Source of the DNA: Streptomyces sp. DH-12
Lineage (GTDB): Bacteria > Actinomycetota > Actinomycetes > Streptomycetales > Streptomycetaceae
DNA length: 64,000 bases
Assembly (NCBI RefSeq): GCF_002899455.1
Contig: NZ_PPFB01000001.1
Coordinates: 2,386,501-2,450,500 of the forward strand
Direction: 5' to 3'
Part shown: positions 30,715-53,320 of the stretch, in pieces
Layout of the letters: the number at the start of each line of letters is the position of its first letter
Position numbering within the stretch: position 1 is the first letter of the stretch
The notes under the pieces: model-generated
Database searches by the model: none
Seen by the model: the letters and a program-made list of their open reading frames with translations, nothing else
What the model was told of the DNA's origin: nothing
Translations under genes and position numbers: made by a program

Positions 30715-30787
30715 TACCCCCGACCGGATTCGAACCGGCGCTACCGCCTTGAGAGGGCGGCGTGCTAGGCCGCTACACAACGGGGGC
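30715..30787 (-). tRNA. tRNA-Glu (CTC)
   Basis: A 73-base cloverleaf starting GCCCCCG, with D arm, anticodon stem CCGCC/GGCGG, loop CTCTCAA giving anticodon CTC, and T loop TTCGAAT. The acceptor closes with CGGGGGT; the first pair is G-T. CCA is not encoded. Confidence 0.96.
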
Positions 30788-30814
30788 GTGGATCATGCGT
30801 TTCCACAGATCCTG

Positions 30815-30886
30815 CTGGTCTACCTGGACTCGAACCAAGACTAACTGAACCAGAATCAGTCGTGCTGCCAATTACACCATAGGCCA
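30815..30886 (-). tRNA. tRNA-Gln (CTG)
   Basis: A 72-base cloverleaf with anticodon stem ACTGA/TCAGT and loop TTCTGGT, giving CTG. The acceptor arms are TGGCCTA and TAGACCA, so position 4-69 is a C-A mismatch. CCA is not encoded. It precedes tRNA-Glu in the same direction by 27 bases. Confidence 0.95.
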
Positions 30887-40187: not shown

Positions 40188-40563
40188 AGCCAAGTCGAAG
40201 GCGGCATACTGCAGTTGTCGTAGGTCCACTGGTGCCGGCTGTGTCCTTGGACACGGCCGGCACCGGTGTTCATAACGTTTCGGCAGAGGAATCGGGTGAG
40301 GCCGACACGCGACGCGGTCGCGCGATATCGCTGCGCGCATGAAGGCCTCGCCTTTTGACGGCGCTCGCTCTTTATGACCGTTTTATCTGGGACTTACATC
40401 ACTCGGGATCCTCGCCTTTCCATGTTTGGATGAGCGCTGGTCGGCATGCTGGAATGCCTGAACCGCCCATGGGTCAAAGACGTACTCAGTAGTCGATGGC
40501 ATGCCGGGCTCTGAGACACTGCGGCACGACGAAGGTGCCGACCGCCGAGAGGTTGTTGGTCGA
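40188..40563. other. Gene-free region between the two conservons
   Basis: Holds the terminator of conservon 1 (40231-40264) and the leader of conservon 2. The motif TGCTGGAAT (40447-40455), part of an inverted repeat GGCAT-N6-ATGCC, recurs upstream of conservon 1. No gene was seen. Confidence 0.5.
40231..40264 (+). terminator. Terminator of the first conservon
   Basis: GGTGCCGGCTGTGTCC-TT-GGACACGGCCGGCACC forms a 16-bp stem with a single T-G wobble pair. No T tract. Confidence 0.7.
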
Positions 40564-43500
40564 GTGAGGCGAAGCAAGAACAGTCCCGAGCCGTCGGCCC
40601 GGGGCAACTTCACGCCGCCGCCGCGCACAGCGGCGCCCGCCCCCGTGCCCGGCCCCGAGTCGAAGGCCGCGCCCGCTCAGGGCGGGGGACGCATGTCCCC
40701 GCGGAACTGGCGCGTGACCACCAAACTCAACGCGATCCTGCTCATACCCGTGCTGGTCGGCCTCGTCATGGGCGGCTTCCAGGTGAAGAGCTCGATCGAC
40801 ACGTGGACCGAGGCGCAGGACGCCGAGAACACCGCCCGCCTGGTGCGGGCCTCCCTCACGTACGCCAACGCCCTCTACAACGAGCGCGACGTCAGCGCCG
40901 TGCCGCTGCTGACCGGCAAGGGCCAGGGCGACCCGGACGTCACCAAGGCGCGCGAGGCGACCGACGAGGCCGCCGACGCCTTCGACGAGGCCGCGCGGAA
41001 CGTGCCGGCCAAGCCCGGTCTGGAGCGCCGGCTGAAGCTCGTCCGCGAGGCCGAGCCCAAGCTGTCCGCGCTGCGCGCCGCCGCCTACACCTCCAAGCTC
41101 AAGGGCGTGGAGACGGAGGAGGGCTACGTCGCCGTCGCCCACCCCCTGATGGAGATCGCCAACGAGCTCAACCTCGGCGCCGGCAACATCACCAGCTACG
41201 GCCGCACGGTCTACGCGATCTCGCTGACCAAGTCCGCCCTGTCGCTGGAGCGCGCCATCGGCATGCACCTGCTGACGAAGCCGGGCCCGACCGACAGCCA
41301 GCTCGCCAGCCAGCGCGTGGCCTTCCTGTCGTACGCCTACCTCGAGGGCATCGCCCTCGAGGAGTACAAGGGCGGCGGCACCGAGGCGGACAACGCCAAG
41401 CTGCAGGAGATCACCGCGCGCATCCAGGCCGAGGGCGCCGCCATGGCCAAGGCGGCCGCGCAGGCCGACCCGGACTACGTCCCGCCGCCCGCCAAGTCGG
41501 AGACGATGATCTCCGAGCTGGGCCGGCTGTCCACCACGGACGAGTCCGCCCGTGAGGACCTCGCCGCCCAGGGCATCACGCCCGAGAACTGGTGGGCGAT
41601 GAACACCCTCAAGTTCGACGGCTACCGCCAGATCGAGTCCGACCTCGCGAACACCGCGGTGGACGAGGCCGTGCAGATCGCCTCCGACGCCCAGCGGGAC
41701 GCCTTCATCACCGGCGCCGCCGTCGTCCTCGCGCTGCTCGCCGCGTTCGTCCTGGCCGGCATGGTGGCCCGCCAGATGAGCCGGTCCATGCGCCAGCTGC
41801 GCAACGCCGCCTTCGGCATCGCCGAGCAGCGCCTGCCGATGCTGGTCGACCAGCTCTCCCGGACCGACCCCGGCCGGGTGGACACCAACGTCACGCCCAT
41901 CCCGATCAACTCCACGGACGAGATCGGGGAGGTCGCACGCGCCTTCGACCAGGTCCACCGCGAGGCCGTCCGGCTCGCCGCCGAGCAGGCCCTGCTGCGG
42001 GGCAACATCAACGCGATCTTCACCAACCTGTCGCGCCGCAACCAGTCGCTGATCGAGGGCCAGCTGACCCTGATCACCGACCTGGAGAACAACGAGGCCG
42101 ACCCGGACCAGCTGGAGAACCTCTTCAAGCTGGACCACCTCGCGACCCGTATGCGCCGCAACGGCGAGAACCTCCTGGTCCTCGCCGGCGAGGAGCCGGG
42201 CCGCCGCTGGGACCAGCCGGTCCCGCTGGTCGACGTGCTGCGCGCCGCCTCCTCCGAGGTGGAGCAGTACGAGCGCATCGAGCTGTCCGGCGTGCCGGAG
42301 GCCGAGATCCACGGCCGCGCGGTCACCGACCTCGTGCACCTGCTCGCCGAGCTGCTGGAGAACGCCACCACGTTCTCCTCGCCGCAGACGAAGGTGCGCG
42401 TCACCGCGACCCGTCTGCCCGACGGCCGCGTCATGATCGAGATCCACGACAAGGGCATCGGCCTCACCGCCGAGGACTTCGCGGACATCAACCACAAGCT
42501 GGCCAACCCGCCGACCGTGGACGCCGCGATCTCGCAGCGCATGGGTCTGTTCGTGGTCGGCCGGCTGTCCGACCGGCACGGCATCCGCGTCCAGCTCCGC
42601 CCCTCGGGCGAGCAGGCCGGCACCACCTCGCTGGTCATGCTGCCGGACGCCATCACCCACGGCGGTGGCGGCGAGGGGGCGCCGGCCCAGGACGAGTTCA
42701 CGGTCTCGCAGATCATCCCGGAGCAGAACGTCCAGGGTGAGAGCTTCGGCCAGCCGATGCGCACCGCCGCGGAGCTGGGCTTCGACGACAGCCGCTACGC
42801 GGACGTCCCCGACGACATCCGCGAGCTGGACCCGGTCGGCCGGTCCCTGATGCGCGAGGGTCGCCGTGCGGCCCTGGAGTCGCAGCCGCAGCCGGGCGAG
42901 CCGGCCGCCGGGGACGCCCAGGAGGGCGCCGAGGGCGGCTACCAGGACGAGTTCGCCGCGCGGCAGCAGGGCTACGACAACGGTCAGGGCTACGACGGCT
43001 ACCAGGACCAGCAGGGCGGCGGCTACCAGGACCAGCAGGGCGGCGGGTACGACCAGCAGGCGTACGACGACGGCCGGCAGGGCGGTTACGGCGACCAGCA
43101 GCAGACGTACGGCGACGGCTACTACGCGCCGAACGGCGACCTGCCGCAGGGCGACGGCTTCCCGCAGACCGGCGGTTTCCCGCAGAACGGCGGCTACCAG
43201 AACGGCTCCTACGCCGAGCCGGGCCGCGGCGGCCAGGCGCCCGCGGGCGCCACGGGCTCCTTCCCGGCCTTCGGCGAGCGGCGTCAGGACGACGACTGGC
43301 CGCAGCAGGACGGCTACCACAACGGCTACCAGGACCAGTACCCTGCACAGACGCCGGAGGGGGAATCCTCGCAGGCCGCTGACGCGCGTGAGCCGGACAG
43401 CGTAGGCTTCGACCGTCCGGGACCGGCTTCCTCCGAGGCCCACGAGCTCACCGACGCCGGGCTTCCGCGCCGCGGGGCCACCGCGAACGGCGCGGACCGC

Positions 43501-43839
43501 GGGAACCAGGAGCCGCCGGCCACCGCTCCGGAGAGCAACGGCGACAGCGACTGGCGCTCGGCCAACGACGAGCGCTGGCAGCAGGCCTCGCAGCTCCGGA
43601 AGCCCAAGGCGGGCGGAGTGACCTCCTCCGGCCTGCCACGGAGGGTCCCGAAGGCCAACCTGGTCCAGGGAGCCGCCGAAACGACCCCCCAGGGAGGCCC
43701 ACAGGTCTCCCGTGCCCCGGAGGACGTCCGGGGCAGGCTGAGCAACCTGCGGCGCGGTGTCCAAAGAGGCCGCACCGCAGGCAGTGAAACGAACGGCCAG
43801 GGCTTCGGTCCTGACAGCACCTACGACCAGGAGCGTTAG
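40564..43839 (+). CDS. cvnA2: Conservon sensor CvnA (second copy), NIT-domain histidine-kinase-like
   Basis: A 1091-residue paralogue of the first CvnA. TM1 lies at about 55-75, the NIT-type sensor at 80-370, TM2 at about 379-402, then HAMP, FKLDHLATRMRRNGENLL, and HATPase_c (ELLENATTF near 595, DKGIGL near 628). The cytoplasmic core is very similar to the first copy; the sensor domain is not. The Gln/Gly/Tyr-rich tail has GGYQDQQ repeats and ends in the same GLPRRVPKANLV block. The GTG at 40564 (GAGAGG 11 bases upstream) is preferred over the ATG at 40501, which lacks a ribosome site. The pair looks like an old duplication. Confidence 0.92.
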   Translation: MRRSKNSPEPSARGNFTPPPRTAAPAPVPGPESKAAPAQGGGRMSPRNWRVTTKLNAILLIPVLVGLVMGGFQVKSSIDTWTEAQDAENTARLVRASLTYANALYNERDVSAVPLLTGKGQGDPDVTKAREATDEAADAFDEAARNVPAKPGLERRLKLVREAEPKLSALRAAAYTSKLKGVETEEGYVAVAHPLMEIANELNLGAGNITSYGRTVYAISLTKSALSLERAIGMHLLTKPGPTDSQLASQRVAFLSYAYLEGIALEEYKGGGTEADNAKLQEITARIQAEGAAMAKAAAQADPDYVPPPAKSETMISELGRLSTTDESAREDLAAQGITPENWWAMNTLKFDGYRQIESDLANTAVDEAVQIASDAQRDAFITGAAVVLALLAAFVLAGMVARQMSRSMRQLRNAAFGIAEQRLPMLVDQLSRTDPGRVDTNVTPIPINSTDEIGEVARAFDQVHREAVRLAAEQALLRGNINAIFTNLSRRNQSLIEGQLTLITDLENNEADPDQLENLFKLDHLATRMRRNGENLLVLAGEEPGRRWDQPVPLVDVLRAASSEVEQYERIELSGVPEAEIHGRAVTDLVHLLAELLENATTFSSPQTKVRVTATRLPDGRVMIEIHDKGIGLTAEDFADINHKLANPPTVDAAISQRMGLFVVGRLSDRHGIRVQLRPSGEQAGTTSLVMLPDAITHGGGGEGAPAQDEFTVSQIIPEQNVQGESFGQPMRTAAELGFDDSRYADVPDDIRELDPVGRSLMREGRRAALESQPQPGEPAAGDAQEGAEGGYQDEFAARQQGYDNGQGYDGYQDQQGGGYQDQQGGGYDQQAYDDGRQGGYGDQQQTYGDGYYAPNGDLPQGDGFPQTGGFPQNGGYQNGSYAEPGRGGQAPAGATGSFPAFGERRQDDDWPQQDGYHNGYQDQYPAQTPEGESSQAADAREPDSVGFDRPGPASSEAHELTDAGLPRRGATANGADRGNQEPPATAPESNGDSDWRSANDERWQQASQLRKPKAGGVTSSGLPRRVPKANLVQGAAETTPQGGPQVSRAPEDVRGRLSNLRRGVQRGRTAGSETNGQGFGPDSTYDQER

Positions 43840-43840
43840 T

Positions 43841-44263
43841 GTGAGCCCGATGAGCCAGGCGGCACAGAACCTGAACTGGTTGATCACCAACTTCGTGGAC
43901 AACACCCCGGGGGTGTCCCACACGGTGGTGGTCTCCGCCGACGGACTCCTTCTGGCGATGTCCGAAGGCTTCCCCCGCGACCGCGCCGACCAGCTCGCGG
44001 CCGTCGCCTCCGGCCTGACCTCTCTCACGGCCGGCGCCTCTCGGATCTTCGAGGGCGGCAGCGTGAATCAGACGGTTGTGGAGATGGAGCGGGGATTCCT
44101 CTTCATCATGTCCATTTCCGACGGTTCGTCGCTCGCGGTTCTCGCACACCCCGAGGCGGACATCGGTCTCGTCGGTTACGAGATGGCCCTTCTGGTCGAC
44201 CGAGCGGGTACGGTCCTCACGCCGGACCTTCGGGCGGAGCTCCAGGGGAGCCTTCTCAACTGA
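43841..44263 (+). CDS. cvnB2: Conservon CvnB (second copy), Roadblock/LC7 protein
   Basis: A 140-residue Roadblock protein very close to the first copy, differing at few positions (for example NVAQ versus SVNQ after EGG, and the last residue N versus H). GTG at 43841 with AGGAG upstream. It starts one base after the cvnA2 stop. Confidence 0.95.
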   Translation: MSPMSQAAQNLNWLITNFVDNTPGVSHTVVVSADGLLLAMSEGFPRDRADQLAAVASGLTSLTAGASRIFEGGSVNQTVVEMERGFLFIMSISDGSSLAVLAHPEADIGLVGYEMALLVDRAGTVLTPDLRAELQGSLLN

Positions 44264-44356
44264 CAGACGGACGGTGCGCTATGGCGTCCCGGAGCCTTAA
44301 GGTTTCGGGACGCGGCTCCACATGATGGGTGCCAGGCACAGTCGGAGGAGGAGAAA

Positions 44357-44923
44357 GTGGCAACACCCCCAGACGGTTCATCGGCGGGCAACTGGTCGTA
44401 CGGCCCTGCCCAGGGTCAGAACGACGGTTCCCAGAACCTCTACGGTTACCCCTCCACGCCTCAGCAGCCGTACGCGCCCCAGGGCCCCGGCCCCTCGCCG
44501 TACGACCAGCCGCAGAGCCCGCGCATCCAGCCCGTGCAGCCGCAGCGCCGGGCACCCGAGCCGACGCCCTCCGGGGCAGCGAACAATCCCCTGGTGCGCC
44601 CGTACGCGATGACGGGCGGACGTACCAGGCCGCGGTACCAGCTCGCCATCGAGGCGCTGGTGCACACCACCGCGCAGCCGCACCAGATGCAGGGCCAGTT
44701 GCCCGAGCATCAGCGGATCTGCAACCTCTGCCGGGAAATCAAGTCGGTGGCCGAGATCTCGGCCCTGCTGACCATCCCTCTCGGCGTGGCCAGGATCCTC
44801 GTCGCCGACTTGGCGGAGGCGGGACTGGTCGCCATCCATCAGCCCGGCGGCGACGAGAACGCCGGCGGCCAGCCAGACGTGACACTGCTCGAAAGGGTGC
44901 TCAGTGGACTTCGCAAGCTCTAG
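44357..44923 (+). CDS. cvnC2: Conservon CvnC (second copy), DUF742 protein
   Basis: A 188-residue DUF742 protein. It has the same C-terminal core as the first copy but a 57-residue Pro/Gln/Tyr-rich N-terminal extension (repeats such as PQQPYAPQGPG). GTG at 44357 with GGAGGAGAAA. Overlaps cvnD2 by 20 bases. Confidence 0.94.
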   Translation: MATPPDGSSAGNWSYGPAQGQNDGSQNLYGYPSTPQQPYAPQGPGPSPYDQPQSPRIQPVQPQRRAPEPTPSGAANNPLVRPYAMTGGRTRPRYQLAIEALVHTTAQPHQMQGQLPEHQRICNLCREIKSVAEISALLTIPLGVARILVADLAEAGLVAIHQPGGDENAGGQPDVTLLERVLSGLRKL

Positions 44924-45485
44924 CGGCGGTCCTTCCCGCTCCACCACCTCGGCGAAGATCGTGGTGGCGGGTGGCTTCGGCGTGGGCAAGACCACGTTCG
45001 TCGGGGCCGTTTCGGAGATCAACCCGCTGCGCACGGAGGCCGTCATGACGTCTGCTTCGGCAGGCATCGACGACCTCACCCACACCGGGGACAAGACCAC
45101 CACCACGGTGGCCATGGACTTCGGCCGTATCACCCTGGACCAGGACCTGATCCTGTACCTCTTCGGTACGCCCGGCCAGGACCGCTTCTGGTTCATGTGG
45201 GACGACCTGGTGCGCGGCGCCATCGGCGCGGTCGTCCTCGTCGACACGCGGCGCCTCGCCGACTGCTTCCCCGCGGTCGACTACTTCGAGAACAGCGGAC
45301 TGCCCTTCGTCATCGCCCTCAACGGCTTCGACGGGCAGCAGCCGTACTCGCCGGACGAGGTCCGGGAGGCTCTCCAGATCGGGCCCGACACGCCGATCAT
45401 CACGACGGACGCGCGGCATCGGGCGGACGCCAAGTCGACGCTCATCACGCTCGTGGAGCACGCGTTGATGGCACGCCTGCGCTGA
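44904..45485 (+). CDS. cvnD2: Conservon CvnD (second copy), small GTPase
   Basis: A 193-residue GTPase almost identical to the first copy; it lacks three residues in the N-terminal linker. P loop GGFGVGKTT, G3 GTPGQDRF and G4 variant NGFDG are all present. Positions 44943-45334 match 39645-40036 without a difference, while the two C-terminal ends differ. A terminator follows at 45504. Confidence 0.96.
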   Translation: MDFASSSGGPSRSTTSAKIVVAGGFGVGKTTFVGAVSEINPLRTEAVMTSASAGIDDLTHTGDKTTTTVAMDFGRITLDQDLILYLFGTPGQDRFWFMWDDLVRGAIGAVVLVDTRRLADCFPAVDYFENSGLPFVIALNGFDGQQPYSPDEVREALQIGPDTPIITTDARHRADAKSTLITLVEHALMARLR

Positions 45486-45879: not shown

Positions 45880-47463
45880 TTACTGGGGCGGGTTGCCGTG
45901 CTTGCGGGACGGCAGGTCGGCGTGCTTGGTCTGCAGCATCGCCAGCGAACGGATCAGCACCTCGCGGGTCTCGGCCGGGTCGATCACGTCGTCGACCAGC
46001 CCGCGCTCGGCGGCGTAATAGGGGTGCATCAGCTCGGACCTGTACTCCTTGACCATGCGGGCCCGCATGGCCTCGGGGTCCTCGGCCTCGGCGATCTGAC
46101 GGCGGAAGATGACGTTCGCCGCGCCCTCCGCGCCCATCACCGCGATCTCGTTCGTCGGCCAGGCGTAGGTGAGGTCGGCGCCGATGGACTGGCTGTCCAT
46201 GACGATGTACGCGCCGCCGTACGCCTTGCGCAGGATCAGCGAGATCCGCGGCACGGTGGCGTTGCAGTACGCGTACAGCAGCTTCGCGCCGTGGCGGATG
46301 ATGCCGCCGTGCTCCTGGTCCACGCCCGGCAGGAAGCCGGGCACGTCCAGGAAGGTCAGGATCGGGATGTTGAACGCGTCGCACATCTGCACGAAGCGGG
46401 CGGCCTTCTCCGAGGCCTCGATGTCCAGGACGCCGGCCAGGGCCTGCGGCTGGTTGGCGACGATGCCGACGACCTGGCCGTCCATCCGCGCGAGCGCGCA
46501 GATGATGTTCCGCGCCCACCGCTCGTGGACCTCGAGGTACTCGCCGTCGTCGACGACCTCCTCGATCACCTTCGCCATGTCGTACGGGCGGTTCCCCTCC
46601 ACGGGGACGAGATCGAGGAGCGTGTCGCCGCGACGGTCCACCGGGTCGCCGCAGGGCACGCGGGGCGGGTTCTCCCGGTTGTTCCGCGGGAGCAGGGAGA
46701 GGAGGTAGCGGACCTCGGCGAGGCAGGTCTCCTCGTCGTCGTAGGCGAAGTGGCACACGCCGGACGTCTCGGCGTGCACGTCCGCGCCGCCCAGGCCGTT
46801 CTGCGTGATCTCCTCACCGGTCACCGCCTTGACCACGTCGGGTCCGGTGATGAACATCTGCGAGGTCTCACGGACCATGAACACGAAGTCCGTCAGGGCG
46901 GGGCTGTAGGCCGCACCGCCCGCGCACGGGCCCAGCATCACACTGATCTGCGGGATGACACCCGAGGCCTTGGTGTTGCGCTGGAAGATCCCGCCGTACC
47001 CCGCGAGCGCGGACACGCCCTCCTGGATCCGGGCGCCCGCACCGTCGTTGAGCGACACCAGCGGCGCACCGGCCGCGATGGCCATGTCCATGATCTTGTG
47101 GATCTTCGTGGCGTGCGCCTCGCCCAGCGCACCGCCGAAGATCCGGAAGTCATGGGCGTAGACGAAGACCGTCCGCCCCTCCACCGTCCCCCAGCCGGTG
47201 ACCACACCGTCGGTGTACGGCTTCTTCTCCTCCAGACCGAAGCCGGTCGCCCGGTGCCGGCGCAACTGCTCCACCTCACGGAACGACCCCGCGTCCAGCA
47301 GCAGTTCGATGCGCTCCCGCGCGGTCAGCTTCCCCTTGGCGTGCTGCGCCCGGGTCGCCTTCTCGCTCGGGCCGGCCAGTGCCTGGGCACGGATCTCGTG
47401 CAGTTCGGCCACGCGTCCGCGCGCGTCGGTCGGCTCGCCCGGCGCCTCATCCAAAACGGTCAT
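45880..47463 (-). CDS. accB: Acyl-CoA carboxylase beta (carboxyltransferase) subunit
   Basis: The carboxyltransferase of acetyl/propionyl-CoA carboxylase, 527 residues, giving malonyl-CoA and methylmalonyl-CoA for fatty acids and polyketides. Motifs: SLNDGAGARIQEGVSALAGYGG, LGPCAGGAAYSPALTDF (oxyanion and CoA site) and FLDVPGFLPGVDQEHGGIIRHG. The ATG at 47463 follows AAGGTCACTAC. accE follows, while the biotin-carrier alpha subunit lies elsewhere. Specificity between acetyl and propionyl cannot be judged confidently from sequence. Confidence 0.95.
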   Translation of the reverse strand: MTVLDEAPGEPTDARGRVAELHEIRAQALAGPSEKATRAQHAKGKLTARERIELLLDAGSFREVEQLRRHRATGFGLEEKKPYTDGVVTGWGTVEGRTVFVYAHDFRIFGGALGEAHATKIHKIMDMAIAAGAPLVSLNDGAGARIQEGVSALAGYGGIFQRNTKASGVIPQISVMLGPCAGGAAYSPALTDFVFMVRETSQMFITGPDVVKAVTGEEITQNGLGGADVHAETSGVCHFAYDDEETCLAEVRYLLSLLPRNNRENPPRVPCGDPVDRRGDTLLDLVPVEGNRPYDMAKVIEEVVDDGEYLEVHERWARNIICALARMDGQVVGIVANQPQALAGVLDIEASEKAARFVQMCDAFNIPILTFLDVPGFLPGVDQEHGGIIRHGAKLLYAYCNATVPRISLILRKAYGGAYIVMDSQSIGADLTYAWPTNEIAVMGAEGAANVIFRRQIAEAEDPEAMRARMVKEYRSELMHPYYAAERGLVDDVIDPAETREVLIRSLAMLQTKHADLPSRKHGNPPQ

Positions 47464-47578
47464 GTAGTGACCTTACGAAGCCCGCCGCTGATTGCGAGCC
47501 GTCGACTCCTCACAGTGTCCGGGGTGTTTTCCTGGTAGCAGTGAACAGAACCAGGGGCCGTGCAGGCGTTCCGACTGC

Positions 47579-49864
47579 TCAGAGGCCCTCGTGCTTGTCG
47601 GGGTCGCACAAACGGCTTCGGCTGAGAGTCGCCTCACACATATGGGTCGCGCATGCCTCCCCCGGAGTGACGCGCAGCCGCAGCCGGGGTCCGGTGGCCA
47701 GAATCTCCACGGTGTCCGGGGCGTCGACCACCTCCCGTACGGGGTGATCCCATTCGATCTCCACCGGTTCGCCCGTTCGGGTCGGGTCGCTCACGCAGAG
47801 CCTAGCGGTACGCCCCCGGCGGCGGAGCAGCACGGCGGCCGGGCGGGAGACGGTGAGCCCTCCCGCGCTTCCTGGACGCCAGAAGGCGGCGGCGGTGAGA
47901 CCCGGCGCGGGGACGTCGACGGCCTGCCGTGAGGCGTCGTTGGCCAGGACGCGCAGCCATCCCCGGCCGGAGGCGCGGCGGGCCACTTCGCCGCGGGCGG
48001 CGCCCGGCAGGAGCACGTAGGCGTAGCGGGTGCCGGCCGGGTCGGTGCCGTGGTCCAGCCAGAGGGTCTGCCAGCGGCGGGTACGGCGTTCGGGCAGGCC
48101 GTCGGCGTTGATGTCGGACCAGGCTCCGGTGCGGTCCTCGCGCAGGGTGTGCAGTTCGCCGTCGAGGACGATCCAGCCGCCGTGTCCCTCCAGGTGCGCC
48201 CAGCCGGGGCCGCGGGTGAGGACGGCCGTGCCGGCTTCCCCCAGATTGCGGTTGTCGACGACCGTCTCGACGGGCACGCCGTCGGCGCCGGTGATGCCGG
48301 CGCCCAGGCAGACGACGACGTCCGCGAGGAAGAACCACGCCTTGCGGGCCTCCAGGGTGGAGCCGAGGCCCTTGAGGTGCTGGCCCACGACCGCGTACGT
48401 GCCGTCGGTGGCGCCGCCGACCCAGCGGACGTCCGGCACGGGTTCGCCCCACTCGCCGCCCGCGCCGTCCGGCAGCCGCTTGGTGGAGACCGTGGTGCCG
48501 GGGAGGCGGTACGGGTCGACGGTGGGCCAGAACCAGTCCGTGTACTGGTCGCCGTGGCCGGCCGCCCACCAGGACACCATTCCGGCGCCGGTGTGCCAGC
48601 CGCGCGGGTTCTCGCCGTTGCCGCACTCGTAGTGGGCGATGCGGTCGCTCGCCATGGCGACGCACGCGGTGAAGCGGGGACGGCGGTGGACGGCGCGGTC
48701 CATGGCGGCGAAGAGGCGGTGCCCGACGGGTGCGGGCGCGGGGGCCGTGGGTCCTTCGGCGATCGCCCGCAGCCGGGCCAGGTCGGCCACGTCGAACTGG
48801 GGGGCGGTCAGCAGGTCGCAGACGGTGTCGCGCGCGATCCAGCCCTTCACCAGCGCGTGCCACCGCTCGCGCCGCGCGCGGTCCGCCCCCTCGGCGAGCA
48901 GAGCGACCGACGCGGTCAGCAGGCCGCCGTGGTAGTGGTCGGAGCGCATGACGTGCTCGTCGTCGCCGGTGAGGCGGCCCCGGCTGACGGCGCGGCCGTT
49001 GACGGCGTCCATGACGAGTCCGTCGTGGATCAGTGGAGCGAAGGCGTGTTCGACGCTGTCGAGGACGTGCCGCCGGGCCGGGTCGGTGATCTCCCAGGGC
49101 GACCCGGCGAGCAGCGCGAACAGCCGCCCCAGCCCGTCGAGCAGCACCTGCCCGTACGTCCCCGAGTAGGCGACCCGGGCGTGCTGCACGAACGAGCCGT
49201 CGGCGTACAGGCCGTCCCCCTCGGTGACGTGCCGGAAGACCGGGGAGAGCGCGTCCCGGGCGAGGGCGATCCGCTCCGGGTCGCGGCCGAGGACGCCGCG
49301 CAGGGCGACGACGCGGCACAGGTCGACGCGGTTGGCGCCGGTGGAGCCGCCGGTGTACGCGGTGAGGGCGGAGCCGGGGACGAAGTGGTCGACGGCCGCG
49401 CAGACGGCGGCGGTCCGCCCGGGGCCCGCCCGCTCGTGGAGGACGGCGAGGAGGTCGGTGAGCAGCCGGGGCGTGCCGATCCGCCACTCCCACCAGTTGC
49501 CGTAGGGGGTGACGCCGGGGCGCCAGACGGTGGCGGTGAGGTGGTCGAGGCCGCGCAGGACGTCCTCGGCCAGTCCGGGGTCGCCGGTCAGGCCGGTGCC
49601 GGGCTGTGCCCAGGCCCGGGTCATGGTCCACAGGCGTGCGCAGGTCGCGGTGACACCGGACGGCGGGTCGAAGGGCAGGTCGGGCCAGAGCCGGCCGGGA
49701 GCGGGGTCCGTCGCGGCCCGGAAGGCGCGGGCGCGCTCGCCCGTCTCCGCGAGCCGGGAGGCGTACGGCTCGGCGGCCGGGTCGTAGCCGGCGCCGAGCG
49801 CGAGGCCGGCCCAGCGCCGGCGCAGGGTGTCGTACGGGTCCCCCGTCGGCGGTCGCCGTGTCAC
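47579..49864 (-). CDS. Polysaccharide lyase family 8 protein without a signal peptide
   Basis: A 761-residue enzyme of the hyaluronate/chondroitin/xanthan lyase family, which cleaves uronic-acid polysaccharides by beta-elimination. The aromatic patch YGNWWEWRIGTPR is at about 121-133. The catalytic residues appear as Asn178 (TGAN), His228 (FVQHARV) and Tyr237 (YSGTYG). NGENPRGWHTGAGM further on is the substrate-binding stretch. C-terminal beta domains complete the fold. The GTG at 49864 follows GGGCAGGGAC. The start is MTRRPPTGDPYDTL: no signal peptide or twin-arginine export signal with a hydrophobic core is present, and none appears with an upstream start. The intracellular form is unexpected for this family. 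It sits 65 bases downstream of an SDR gene. Confidence 0.85.
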   Translation of the reverse strand: MTRRPPTGDPYDTLRRRWAGLALGAGYDPAAEPYASRLAETGERARAFRAATDPAPGRLWPDLPFDPPSGVTATCARLWTMTRAWAQPGTGLTGDPGLAEDVLRGLDHLTATVWRPGVTPYGNWWEWRIGTPRLLTDLLAVLHERAGPGRTAAVCAAVDHFVPGSALTAYTGGSTGANRVDLCRVVALRGVLGRDPERIALARDALSPVFRHVTEGDGLYADGSFVQHARVAYSGTYGQVLLDGLGRLFALLAGSPWEITDPARRHVLDSVEHAFAPLIHDGLVMDAVNGRAVSRGRLTGDDEHVMRSDHYHGGLLTASVALLAEGADRARRERWHALVKGWIARDTVCDLLTAPQFDVADLARLRAIAEGPTAPAPAPVGHRLFAAMDRAVHRRPRFTACVAMASDRIAHYECGNGENPRGWHTGAGMVSWWAAGHGDQYTDWFWPTVDPYRLPGTTVSTKRLPDGAGGEWGEPVPDVRWVGGATDGTYAVVGQHLKGLGSTLEARKAWFFLADVVVCLGAGITGADGVPVETVVDNRNLGEAGTAVLTRGPGWAHLEGHGGWIVLDGELHTLREDRTGAWSDINADGLPERRTRRWQTLWLDHGTDPAGTRYAYVLLPGAARGEVARRASGRGWLRVLANDASRQAVDVPAPGLTAAAFWRPGSAGGLTVSRPAAVLLRRRGRTARLCVSDPTRTGEPVEIEWDHPVREVVDAPDTVEILATGPRLRLRVTPGEACATHMCEATLSRSRLCDPDKHEGL

Positions 49865-49929
49865 GTCCCTGCCCTCCCCGCGCCGGGAACACGGGGTGCC
49901 TACCCGCGCGGGCGGGGACGCACACGGCC

Positions 49930-50769
49930 TCAGCCGAAGCGGTCGAGGAGCCGGCGGTAGAGGCCGGGGGTGAGGGCGCGGACGCGCGGCGGGAGGGTCA
50001 GCCAGGACGGGATGTAGGTGTCGTCGCGGGCCTCGCCGACCGCGTCCCACACGGCGGCCGCGACCCGGCCGGGCGAGGTGGGGCGCGGGTGGGAGCGGTG
50101 GTAGGGGCGGCCTCGGCGGGCGAAGAAGCCGGTCTCGACGGGGCCGGGCACCACCAGGGTGACGCCGACGCCGGTGCCGCGCAGCTCCTGCCGGAGCGCC
50201 TCGGCGAACGCGGCCAGTCCGGCCTTGGCGGCGGAGTACACCGCCTCCTCGCGGACGCCCACCGCGCCGGCCACCGACCCGACGAGCACCACCCGGCCGC
50301 TCCCGGCCGCCACCATCGCGGGCAGCACCTCGCGGACCAGGTGCAGGGTGGCGTTGAGGTCGAGGAAGAGCACCCGGTCGATGTCGGTGTGCGGCATGGT
50401 CAGGAAGGGGCCCGCCCAGCCGATGCCCGCCCCGGCGATCAGCAGGTCGATCCGTCCGGCCTCCCGCAGCGCGGCCTCGGCCAGCATCTTCGCCCCGTCC
50501 GGTGCGGCGAGGTCGGCGGGCAGCAGGACCGCGGACGTGCCGGACGCGGTCTCCTCGAGCCGGCGCCGGTCGCGTCCGCTGAGCAGCAGGTGCCATCCGC
50601 CGGCGGCGAAGCGGCGGGCGGTGGCCGCGCCGATGCCCGAGGACGCGCCGGTGACGAGGGCGACGCGCCGGTCGGTGCGGGGCGGGGTCCGGCCGAGTGC
50701 CGCGGCCGCGGCGGAGGCGGCGGGGTCCGCCGGGGGGTCGTAGGTGGAATCGGAGCCGGTGGTGGTCAC
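49930..50769 (-). CDS. Short-chain dehydrogenase/reductase
   Basis: A 279-residue SDR. Cofactor motif TGASSGIG near residue 40, then an NAG-type turn (IAGAGIGWAG), catalytic Ser in VLVGSVAGAVG and the YSAAK active site. The GTG at 50769 has GGGAGA seven bases upstream; an ATG at 50784 has none. Cotranscribed with the PL8 gene. The substrate is unknown. NADP(H) preference is unclear. Confidence 0.88.
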   Translation of the reverse strand: MTTTGSDSTYDPPADPAASAAAAALGRTPPRTDRRVALVTGASSGIGAATARRFAAGGWHLLLSGRDRRRLEETASGTSAVLLPADLAAPDGAKMLAEAALREAGRIDLLIAGAGIGWAGPFLTMPHTDIDRVLFLDLNATLHLVREVLPAMVAAGSGRVVLVGSVAGAVGVREEAVYSAAKAGLAAFAEALRQELRGTGVGVTLVVPGPVETGFFARRGRPYHRSHPRPTSPGRVAAAVWDAVGEARDDTYIPSWLTLPPRVRALTPGLYRRLLDRFG

Positions 50770-51058
50770 GAGTCGGTCTCCCATGCGCTGTCGCTGCGGG
50801 CCTCGCCATCCAGGACACCCCCGGCCCGGGGGGCCGCGCCAGCGCAGCGGCCCGTTCGCGGCGGCCCCGGCGGGGCCCGCCCGCGGGTTCCGCCGCCCGT
50901 GACCCGTGCGGTCGCGGGGCCGCTCCCGCCGCGCGGCGGGGCCACTCCTGCGTGCCGCCGGATGGGCCATGCGGGCGTATGGACCGTACGCGCCCGGACG
51001 CGCCGGGTTACGAAAGGGACGTTCCGCCCCTTCCCCGGCACAGTGACGAGGTCCCCTG

Positions 51059-52558
51059 ATGCGCCTGCTGCTCGTCCACCCCAGCGCCCTGATGTACTCC
51101 GAGATCTTCCTCCGGCTCGAACCCCTGGGCCTGGAGCGGGTGGCCGGCGCCGCCCGCGAGGCGGGTCACGAGGTCCGGGTGGTCGATCTCCAGGTGCTGA
51201 GCGTGCGGCGGCTGCGCGACGAGGTGCGGTCGTTCCGCCCGGAGGCGCTCGGCATCTCCCTGAACTACCTGGCGAACGTTCCCGAGGCGATCCGGCTGGC
51301 CGAGCGGGTGAAGGAGGAGCTGCCGGAGTGCTTCGTGTTCCTCGGCGGCCACAGCGTCTCGTTCGTCGCCCAGGAGGTCATCGAGCAGGCGAAGGGCGCC
51401 GTGGACGCCGTGGTGCGGGGCGAGGGCGAGCCCGCCGTCGGACCGCTGCTCGAGGCGGTGCGGGACGGCGGGGTGGACGGGGTGCCGGGTGTCGTCACGG
51501 CGTCGGGGCGCGGCCCCGCCCCGCTGATGCTGCACGGCATCGACGAGCCGCTGCCGGCCCGGGACCTGACGCGCGGCCGGCGCCGCTACTTCATCGGCGA
51601 ACTGGACCCGTGCGCGTCGGTCGAGTTCACCCGGGGCTGCCCCTGGGACTGCTCGTTCTGCTCCGCCTGGACGTTCTACGGCCGCAGCTACCGCAAGGCG
51701 TCCCCGGAGGCGGCGGCGGACGACCTCGCGGCGATCCGCGAGCCGAACGTGTTCATCGTCGACGACGTGGCGTTCATCCGGCCCGAGCACGGCGACGCCA
51801 TCGCGGCGGAGGTCGAGCGGCGCCGGATCCGCAAGCGGTACTACCTGGAGACCCGCTCGGACGTGCTGCTGCGCCACCCGGAGGTGTTCGAGCGCTGGGC
51901 GCGGCTGGGGCTGCGGTACATGTTCCTCGGCATGGAGGCGATCGACGCCGAGGGGCTCGACCTGTACCGCAAGCGGGTCAGCCCGGACGAGAACCTGAAG
52001 GCGCTGGAGACGGCCCGGCGGATGGGCATCAAGGTCGCCGTCAACCTGATCGTGGACCCGGCCTGGGACGAGGAACGCTTCCGGGTGGTGCGGGAGTTCG
52101 CGATGGCCGTGCCGGAGATCGTGCACTTCACGGTGATGACGCCGTACCCGGGCACGGAGATCTGGCACACCGAGTCGCGCCGGCTCACCACCCGCGACTA
52201 CCGGCTGTTCGACATCCAGCACGCGGTGGTGCCCACCACGCTGCCGCTGGACCGCTTCTACGAGGAGCTGGTGCGCACCCAGGCGGTCATCAACCGCAAG
52301 CACCTGGGGCTGCGCACGGCGTTCGGGGCGGCGCGGGTGCTGGCCCGGAACCTGGCGCACGGGCAGACGAACTTCGCCCGCATGCTGTGGAAGTTCAACC
52401 AGGTGTACGACCCGCGCCGGCAGCTCGCCGACCACGCGCGTCCGGTGCGTCACGAGCTGCCGCTCCCCCAGCGGCTCGACGTGGGCGACCGGCGCGCGCT
52501 GTACGTCCACACCCGCGGCGCGACCCAGGGCGCACCGGCCCGTCGGCTGCCCGGCTAG
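51059..52558 (+). CDS. hpnR: Cobalamin-binding radical SAM protein, HpnR-like (hopanoid C-3 methylase)
   Basis: A 499-residue class B radical SAM methylase. The N-terminal B12-binding Rossmann domain spans about 1-160 (LLVHPSALMYSEIFLRLEPLGLE..., GHSVSFVAQEV). The radical SAM core follows, with cluster motif CPWDCSFC near residue 196 in the family context FTRGCPWDCSFCSAWTFYGRSY. A C-terminal extension contains FDIQHAVVPTTLPL and GQTNFARMLWKFN. I recognise the overall pattern as hopanoid C-3 methylase; the exact substrate is inference. The ATG at 51059 is divergent from the SDR gene. Confidence 0.85.
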   Translation: MRLLLVHPSALMYSEIFLRLEPLGLERVAGAAREAGHEVRVVDLQVLSVRRLRDEVRSFRPEALGISLNYLANVPEAIRLAERVKEELPECFVFLGGHSVSFVAQEVIEQAKGAVDAVVRGEGEPAVGPLLEAVRDGGVDGVPGVVTASGRGPAPLMLHGIDEPLPARDLTRGRRRYFIGELDPCASVEFTRGCPWDCSFCSAWTFYGRSYRKASPEAAADDLAAIREPNVFIVDDVAFIRPEHGDAIAAEVERRRIRKRYYLETRSDVLLRHPEVFERWARLGLRYMFLGMEAIDAEGLDLYRKRVSPDENLKALETARRMGIKVAVNLIVDPAWDEERFRVVREFAMAVPEIVHFTVMTPYPGTEIWHTESRRLTTRDYRLFDIQHAVVPTTLPLDRFYEELVRTQAVINRKHLGLRTAFGAARVLARNLAHGQTNFARMLWKFNQVYDPRRQLADHARPVRHELPLPQRLDVGDRRALYVHTRGATQGAPARRLPG

Positions 52559-52629
52559 GTCCGGCCCGGGTCCGGTCGGTCCTCCCTTTTCGTCCGGGCG
52601 AACGGATCGCGACAGCTTCCTGAAAAATG

Positions 52630-52688
52630 TTGAAGATTGAAGGGAATGGGTCTACGGTGGGCCGTGCAAGCTAGTTGAACCTTCAACT
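52630..52688 (+). promoter_or_regulatory. Promoter and palindromic operator of the YceI gene
   Basis: TTGAAG (52630-52635), a 17-base spacer and TACGGT (52653-52658) form a promoter. A perfect 16-base palindrome AGTTGAACCTTCAACT at 52673-52688 covers the likely start site, as expected for a MarR-type repressor. TTGAA also repeats within the promoter. Confidence 0.7.
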
Positions 52689-52717
52689 GAATCTTCCCGT
52701 CCCCCAGGAGGAACACC

Positions 52718-53320
52718 ATGGGTCTCTTCGGCCGCAAGGACGACGACAAGGGCGCCACCGGCTCCGCGGTGAGCCCGGACCTGGCAGCGCTGACCGGCGA
52801 CTACACGCTCGACCCCGCGCACACCACGATCGGCTTCGTCGCGCGCCACGCGATGGTCACCAACGTCAAGGGCCACTTCTCGGAGTTCTCCGGCGAGCTG
52901 CACCTCGACGGCACGGACCCGAGCAGGTCGACGGCCTCGATCGACGTGGTGATGAACAGCATCGACACGGGCAACGCCGACCGCGACGGTCACCTGAGGA
53001 GCGCGGACTTCTTCAGGACCGACGAGTTCCCGGACATGACCTTCCGCTCCACCAAGGCGGAGGCCCTGGGCGGTGACGACTACCGCATCACCGGCGACCT
53101 GACCATCCTCGGCACCACCAGGCCGATCACCATCGACCTGGAGTTCAACGGCGCCGCGAAGGACCCGTTCGGCAACGAGCGCGTCGGCTTCGAGGGCAGG
53201 GCCGAGATCCTCCGCTCCGAGTGGGATCTGACCTGGAACGCGGCCCTGGAGACGGGTGGCGTGCTGGTCTCCGACAAGATCAAGCTGAACTTCGACATCT
53301 CGGCGATCCGCAAGGCCTGA
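52718..53320 (+). CDS. YceI-family lipocalin-like protein
   Basis: A 200-residue protein of the YceI family, whose members bind polyisoprenoids or other amphipathic ligands in a beta-barrel. Typical motifs are present: YTLDPAHTTIGFVARHAMVTNVKG, FFRTDEFPDMTF, and LTWNAALETGGVLVSDKIKL. No signal peptide; the start MGLFGRKDDDKG is cytoplasmic. The ATG at 52718 follows AGGAGG. Regulation by a MarR-type protein is inferred from the palindrome at 52673-52688. Confidence 0.93.
   Translation: MGLFGRKDDDKGATGSAVSPDLAALTGDYTLDPAHTTIGFVARHAMVTNVKGHFSEFSGELHLDGTDPSRSTASIDVVMNSIDTGNADRDGHLRSADFFRTDEFPDMTFRSTKAEALGGDDYRITGDLTILGTTRPITIDLEFNGAAKDPFGNERVGFEGRAEILRSEWDLTWNAALETGGVLVSDKIKLNFDISAIRKA

Follow-up and report, generated by a model that had tools for sequence, protein, structure and literature searches.

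3-Methylhopanoids serve as geological biomarkers and, to our knowledge, their biological role is still poorly understood. The present analysis concerns the gene for a cobalamin-binding radical SAM hopanoid C-3 methylase, HpnR, in Streptomyces sp. DH-12, together with the neighbouring genes for a short-chain dehydrogenase/reductase (SDR) and a family 8 polysaccharide lyase (PL8); all three lie within a 64,000-nucleotide stretch of DNA (hereafter the window) that begins at 2.387 Mb of contig C1 of the 7.6 Mb host genome. The closest described system is HpnR of Methylococcus capsulatus (TIGR04367; excerpts of PMC5462960), which the window protein resembles in its B12-binding and radical SAM architecture and its equivalog-level score, as well as in the presence of SHC in the genome and the lack of linkage to the main hopanoid cluster. 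The two differ in that HpnR of the window and of its relatives is paired with an SDR, to which relatives often add a DMT-family membrane protein and a GT4 glycosyltransferase. A second comparison is offered by the HpnI-HpnK-HpnJ route to glycosylated hopanoids (excerpts of PMC12583986), similar to the relatives of the window in that a glycosyltransferase adjoins a hopanoid radical SAM enzyme; the GT4 of these relatives differs in that its link to hopanoids is putative and its NCBIfam scores are all below cut-off, and it is absent beside HpnR in the window. Among the matches listed from the open-licence literature, represented by excerpts, no SDR, DMT or GT4 partner of HpnR is described, which is weak evidence of novelty.

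The reading that we favour, with moderate confidence, is that HpnR and the divergently transcribed SDR form a lipid-modification pair, that this pair belongs in relatives to a larger SDR-HpnR-DMT-GT4 module, and that the PL8 gene is a decaying bystander. The linkage and co-occurrence of SDR and HpnR are conserved beyond their adjacency at this site, and on the strength of that linkage alone the SDR may act upon a hopanoid or a related lipid. A preliminary description of the locus correctly placed the three genes, with SDR and PL8 on the minus strand and HpnR divergent from them; the features are as follows.

51059-52558, plus strand: hpnR, cobalamin-binding radical SAM hopanoid C-3 methylase, 499 amino acids (TIGR04367, Pfam, CPWDCSFC motif)
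50770-51058, no strand: intergenic region between the divergent SDR and HpnR genes (alignment; dyad count)
49930-50769, minus strand: SDR of the HpnR-linked clade (SDRa), 279 amino acids from a GTG start (PF00106, 6.9e-47; TGASSGIG and YSAAK motifs; tree clade 100/99)
47579-49864, minus strand: PL8 polysaccharide lyase open reading frame, judged a bystander (PF08124/PF02278/PF02884; PDB 2wco; N-terminal comparison; deletion; dN/dS, the ratio of nonsynonymous to synonymous substitution rates)
49859-49929, minus strand: start region of PL8, with ribosome-binding site (GGAGGG), GTG-ACA start and the site of a 105-base in-frame deletion (alignment)
45880-47463, minus strand: carboxyltransferase that we take to be of the accB type, conserved left anchor outside the module (PF01039; adjoins PL8 in relatives)
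52718-53320, plus strand: YceI-family protein, conserved right anchor outside the module (PF04264)

HpnR and the hopanoid pathway of the host genome

The methylase, at first called HpnR-like, scores 849.9 bits against TIGR04367 and so exceeds the equivalog cut-off of 650, on which basis it can be read as HpnR proper. Both its B12-binding (PF02310) and Radical_SAM (PF04055) domains are over cut-off, the CxxxCxxC cluster is present as CPWDCSFC, and C-3 methylation is the chemistry predicted from the family. No second HpnR over cut-off is present in the host genome. The hopanoid cluster of this genome, at approximately 1.149-1.162 Mb of C1, contains HpnC, HpnD, HpnE, SHC (804.9 bits, C1:1155008) and HpnH over cut-off, together with an aminotransferase to which no specific family name applies over cut-off. 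HpnR (C1:2437559) thus sits outside the hpn cluster, some 1.3 Mb away, in a genome that has the pathway to its hopanoid substrate. The observation that no other hopanoid gene is found here holds for the five proteins scanned (45880-53320), among which no further hopanoid family was over cut-off, the remainder of the 64-kb window lying outside that scan. Given the distant cluster, an HpnR without hopanoid neighbours is ordinary; moreover, in the Alphaproteobacteria analysed hpnP and hpnR usually lie away from other hopanoid genes (excerpts of PMC12583986), so that their absence from the locus says little. The same excerpts note that presence of hpnR is no guarantee of 3-methylhopanoid production.

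HpnR over cut-off was found in 30 of 295 sampled Streptomyces genomes, the genus set used throughout, and SHC over cut-off in 282, such that most Streptomyces possess SHC without HpnR. An SHC match is present in all 30 HpnR genomes, which is uninformative because the base rate of SHC is so high. An earlier survey (Welander and Summons 2012, as given in excerpts of PMC5462960) identified hpnR in 8 of the 43 Streptomyces covered, all of which had shc.

Conservation of the SDR-HpnR pair

Classical SDRs are marked by the motifs TGxxxGxG and YxxxK. The window protein has the adh_short domain and both motifs (TGASSGIG and YSAAK), identifying it as a classical SDR, and no NCBIfam family was over cut-off among the best 25 of its 221 matches. 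Its gene is separated from HpnR by 289 bp, and an alternative ATG start lies approximately 15 bases upstream of the GTG. Conservation of this arrangement was examined in named HpnR loci, the best 80 of 416 candidates, of which 39 have an accB or YceI anchor (accB-site loci) and 41 do not. Presence at these loci was counted by tblastn; the gene calls came from a basic script relying on codon composition, which overlooked or misnamed some genes. The SDR adjoins HpnR in 33 of the 39 accB-site loci, and in three of the remaining six (L104, L110, L122) the contig ends near HpnR. At the non-accB loci an SDR with at least 59% identity to that of the window or of L158 lies within 8 kb of HpnR in 11 of 41, in four of them at 1 kb or less, in varied gene arrangements. 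In a tree of 69 SDR rows, from which sequences with internal stops, matches shorter than 200 amino acids and identical sequences had been dropped, all 46 accB-site rows (a label that takes in the short contig L129, on which no anchor gene lies, and loci where HpnR is not intact) share one clade (100/99) with the SDRs of L140 and G239, whose link to HpnR lies outside the accB site.

Across the genus set, the wider SDR subfamily (E <= 1e-50, with only eight candidates scored per genome, a restriction that tells against our interpretation) is present in 27 of the 30 genomes with HpnR and in 52 of the 265 without it (p 1.7e-14), and in 15 of 18 against 52 of 265 once the 12 genomes with adjacent pairs are removed (p 5e-8). 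Because relatedness inflates tests of co-occurrence, we built a tree from the SHC sequences of 105 genomes and simulated on it an SDR evolving independently of HpnR. The genomes were the 95 listed with the top SHC scores plus 10 further HpnR genomes, so that 24 of the 30 HpnR genomes are covered, and SHC, a single gene, stands for the species tree. None of 2000 simulations reached the observed association, and 3 of 2000 did so without adjacent pairs; a second run, with 10 added genomes that all have the SDR but not HpnR and weigh against the association, gave 5 of 2000.

The alternative that HpnR, SDR and PL8 are co-located by common descent, and are functionally unlinked, is possible for the SDR although less probable than our favoured reading. 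Many of the accB-site loci are closely related, and any one of the three genes can be absent at the accB-YceI site while the others are present. Several further observations weigh against a functional pair, some of them also in favour of common descent. HpnR has no adjoining SDR in accB-site loci L125, L126 and L136 or in G419, and 30 of 41 non-accB loci have no such SDR in their flanks (five of the 30 with less than 6 kb upstream). Eight of the SDRs near HpnR at non-accB loci (L139, L148, L158, L145, L153, L159, L160, L165) group in the tree with unlinked SDRs, which weakens any claim of strict SDR orthology, and the 52 HpnR-less genomes that carry the wider subfamily count likewise. With adjacent pairs removed, the narrow SDRa (69% identity, one of three thresholds, with 58% for DMT and 63% for PL8, chosen after viewing the lists) occurs in 1 of 18 HpnR genomes versus 6 of 265 others (p 0.37), and its association is gone; 6 of 19 SDRa genomes are without HpnR over cut-off, including G124, which has HpnR fragments. 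No match to SDR, DMT or GT4 was found near HpnR in three genomes of other genera (flanks of 1.6-9.7 kb per side), and the nearest solved structures to the SDR are generic FabG-like reductases. However, common descent alone accounts poorly for an SDR near HpnR at other loci in other gene orders, and for co-occurrence of the wider subfamily with HpnR in unlinked positions, even after the tree-based control.

A general role for the SDR as ribosylhopane reductase was considered and is unlikely, because its subfamily is far rarer (79 of 295 genomes) than SHC (282 of 295). Some individual genomes also merit description. In G124 (L183:5608-6042) HpnR is reduced to three fragments next to SDR and PL8, below a perfect upstream dyad (see below), and in Streptomyces sp. 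F001 (L113:7482-13442) HpnR, SDR, DMT and accB are present as an inverted duplication, either real or an assembly artefact. G349, a genome of another genus in the class, has a partial HpnR match below cut-off. The host genome has a second SDR of the subfamily (L186:5312-7881; G000:C1, approximately 7.055-7.058 Mb) that adjoins a DMT-family gene and a putative NodB-type deacetylase, a label resting on a similar protein in L145, and the same grouping recurs in G251 (L184:3659-5992).

The region between the divergent genes was also compared. An 18-base dyad-like element, TGCCGCCAGGCGGCGGTA, was counted with a tolerance of 3 mismatches: 28 of 80 loci have it in the 250 bp preceding HpnR, and the 1.34 Mb searched contain four other matches, of which one is in L113, the locus with a second, inverted HpnR copy. 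Because some of these data had supplied the motif, the count is descriptive and not a test. The element is kept where the SDR is missing (L125, L126, L136) and by the HpnR fragments of G124, and is absent from the window at that tolerance. We considered whether the element might co-regulate HpnR and the hopanoid cluster; the stretch with the cluster (L176), like the window, yielded no copy at up to 3 mismatches. A cobalamin riboswitch upstream of HpnR was considered as well, and Rfam at the gathering threshold returned only two tRNAs in the window.

The PL8 lyase at the accB-YceI site

All three Lyase_8 Pfam domains (PF08124, PF02278, PF02884) are over cut-off in PL8, and its closest PDB entry is 2wco, deposited as 'putative secreted lyase' (1234 bits over residues 12-754). 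We take 2wco, together with 2wda and 2x03, to be the PL8 hyaluronan lyase of Streptomyces coelicolor. The window protein is homologous to it over the same residues and retains the Tyr of SGTYGQ, which an alignment with 2wco and 2x03 matches to Ala in 2x03 and which is presumably an active-site residue; it differs in having lost its signal peptide through an in-frame deletion. The gene shares a strand with SDR across a gap of 65 bp, and a single operon of the two is plausible from this layout.

The preliminary description had proposed that the three genes might form a lipid/glycan locus, or else be together by chance. As already described, the SDR-HpnR portion of this neighbourhood is conserved and co-occurring; the PL8 gene, by contrast, is separable from it and looks like a chance neighbour. 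PL8 loci were fetched from the best-scoring 30 of 228 genomes with a match, and the order accB-PL8-YceI is found in 24 of them, with no SDR or HpnR match in any of the 24 (1.5-kb flanks). The SDR is present at the other six (L036, which is the window, L037, L046, L052, L053 and L062), and in relatives of the window, SDR and HpnR are placed between PL8 and YceI. Full-length PL8 is found at 17 of 39 accB-site HpnR loci, with fragments only at a further 6, versus none of the 41 non-accB loci. In the genus set PL8 (at least 63% identity) occurs in 14 of the 30 genomes with HpnR and in 103 of the 265 without it (p 0.44), and in the SHC-tree simulation 1024 of 2000 runs reached the observed value, so that there is no excess.

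Comparison of the N-termini indicates what became of the gene in this lineage. A crude criterion, which asks for a twin arginine and then a hydrophobic stretch, finds a signal peptide in 46 of 48 distinct relatives of the window PL8 and none in the window protein, L060 and L118 being the other two exceptions. In an alignment of the start region with four relatives, the window sequence keeps the ribosome-binding site and GTG start and then lacks, in frame, 105 bases that L112 and L124 have and that cover the signal peptide. The dN/dS values of PL8 are 0.39-0.48 for pairs that include the window versus 0.20-0.42 for other pairs, overlapping ranges, compared with 0.09-0.16 for HpnR pairs and 0.14-0.32 for SDR pairs. 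Among the six closest named loci (L096-L101; HpnR identity 96-97%), four contain PL8 fragments and two have no match. PL8 in the window thus appears to be decaying, although its frame is still open and its dN/dS is below 1, which speaks against decay; a cytoplasmic lyase under weak selection is a possible alternative.

These data bear directly upon the proposal that PL8, SDR and HpnR work together in the synthesis or remodelling of a lipid that bears uronate. The trio is complete at 14 of the 39 accB-site loci and in 5 of the 295 genomes of the genus set, and a lyase without a signal peptide could work inside the cell. However, PL8 occupies the site with neither HpnR nor SDR at 24 of the 30 PL8 loci fetched, is missing at every non-accB HpnR locus, shows no association with HpnR across genomes or on the tree, carries a signal peptide by the crude criterion in almost all its relatives, and is fragmented or absent at the closest loci. 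A three-gene glycolipid locus is accordingly very improbable, and PL8 was rejected as a pathway partner on the strength of its HpnR- and SDR-free sites, the lack of genome-wide or tree association and its absence from non-accB loci. For this gene we accept co-location by descent: since it occupies the accB-YceI site elsewhere without HpnR and SDR, shows no co-occurrence with HpnR and appears to be decaying, it is probably a bystander unrelated to HpnR, and the linkage pattern suggests an older resident of that site.

Elsewhere in the window, genes at 40501-45485 (a sensor-like protein, small regulators and a GTPase-like protein) resemble a Streptomyces conservon, and two adjoining tRNA genes lie on the minus strand at 30715-30886.

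A probable larger module in relatives and the meaning of the pair

In relatives of the window, HpnR has two further neighbours: a membrane protein of the DMT family, which scores 133 bits against NF038012 (cut-off 50), and a GT4 glycosyltransferase with Pfam families over cut-off and all NCBIfam matches below. S. marokkonensis (L106) and S. lomondensis (L107) are examples of species with all four genes, and S. griseoincarnatus (L096) and S. glaucescens (L115) of species that carry the SDR-HpnR pair. DMT is present at 20 of 39 accB-site and 7 of 41 other loci, and GT4 at 16 of 39 and 5 of 41. In the genus set GT4 (E <= 1e-60, fixed in the search) occurs in 8 of 295 genomes, seven with HpnR, and lies on a separate contig from HpnR in G281 and G266; DMT (at least 58% identity) occurs in 10 of 295, nine with HpnR. 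Both genes are absent beside HpnR in the window, the host genome has no GT4 at E <= 1e-60, and its DMT proteins are distant only (best E 2.3e-35). The glycolipid suggested in the preliminary description gains indirect support from the relatives in which these two genes adjoin HpnR.

The tracking of HpnR by GT4 and DMT, and the scarcity of HpnR relative to SHC, could also be accommodated if HpnR methylated a non-hopanoid lipid within an SDR-DMT-GT4 glycolipid module. We consider this improbable, as the HpnR score lies far above the equivalog cut-off; that every HpnR genome has SHC would also fit a hopanoid substrate, and is uninformative given the base rate.

Other genes recur near HpnR. Additional genes for cytochrome oxidase (CtaD, as a rule accompanied by Cox4 and QcrB) are found in 13 of 41 non-accB loci (L142, L143, L146, L149, L150, L151, L154, L156, L161, L163, L165, L170 and L174) and in a genome from a different family of the class (L193:2545-4128), and HpnR may have a link to respiration. 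A Rieske oxygenase, distantly similar to the 4beta-methylsterol monooxygenase SdmA (183 bits for the L172 protein, cut-off 600), adjoins HpnR in 4 of 80 loci (L152:7752, L161:7770, L167:7830 and L172:10575).

In the favoured reading of a lipid-modification pair, HpnR and SDR would act in one lipid pathway on hopanoids supplied by the distant hpn cluster. By radical SAM chemistry HpnR would methylate C-3 of the hopanoid A-ring, with methylcobalamin as the methyl donor. The SDR, using NAD(P)H, would work on a carbonyl or hydroxyl group, reducing or oxidising it, either in the methylated hopanoid or in a lipid partner. In relatives this putative pathway would extend to a four-gene module, with the DMT-family protein as a possible transporter and GT4, both of which the window lineage lacks at the site. 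PL8 would stand outside the pathway, decaying after loss of its export signal. A more specific extension, which we put forward only tentatively and regard as rather doubtful, is that HpnR of Streptomyces belongs to a hitherto undescribed hopanoid-tailoring module (SDR, DMT, GT4) that produces a 3-methylhopanoid in oxidised or glycosylated form and transports it; having kept only methylase and reductase, the window lineage would therefore make the unglycosylated form.

For the study of these lipids, the lyase adjoining HpnR is no evidence of a uronate glycolipid, and a misleading clue is thereby removed. The company of SDR, DMT and GT4 suggests that the relevant 3-methylhopanoid product may be modified further, and the SDR that co-occurs with HpnR, together with the DMT and GT4 of relatives, provides concrete targets for deletion in tractable Streptomyces.

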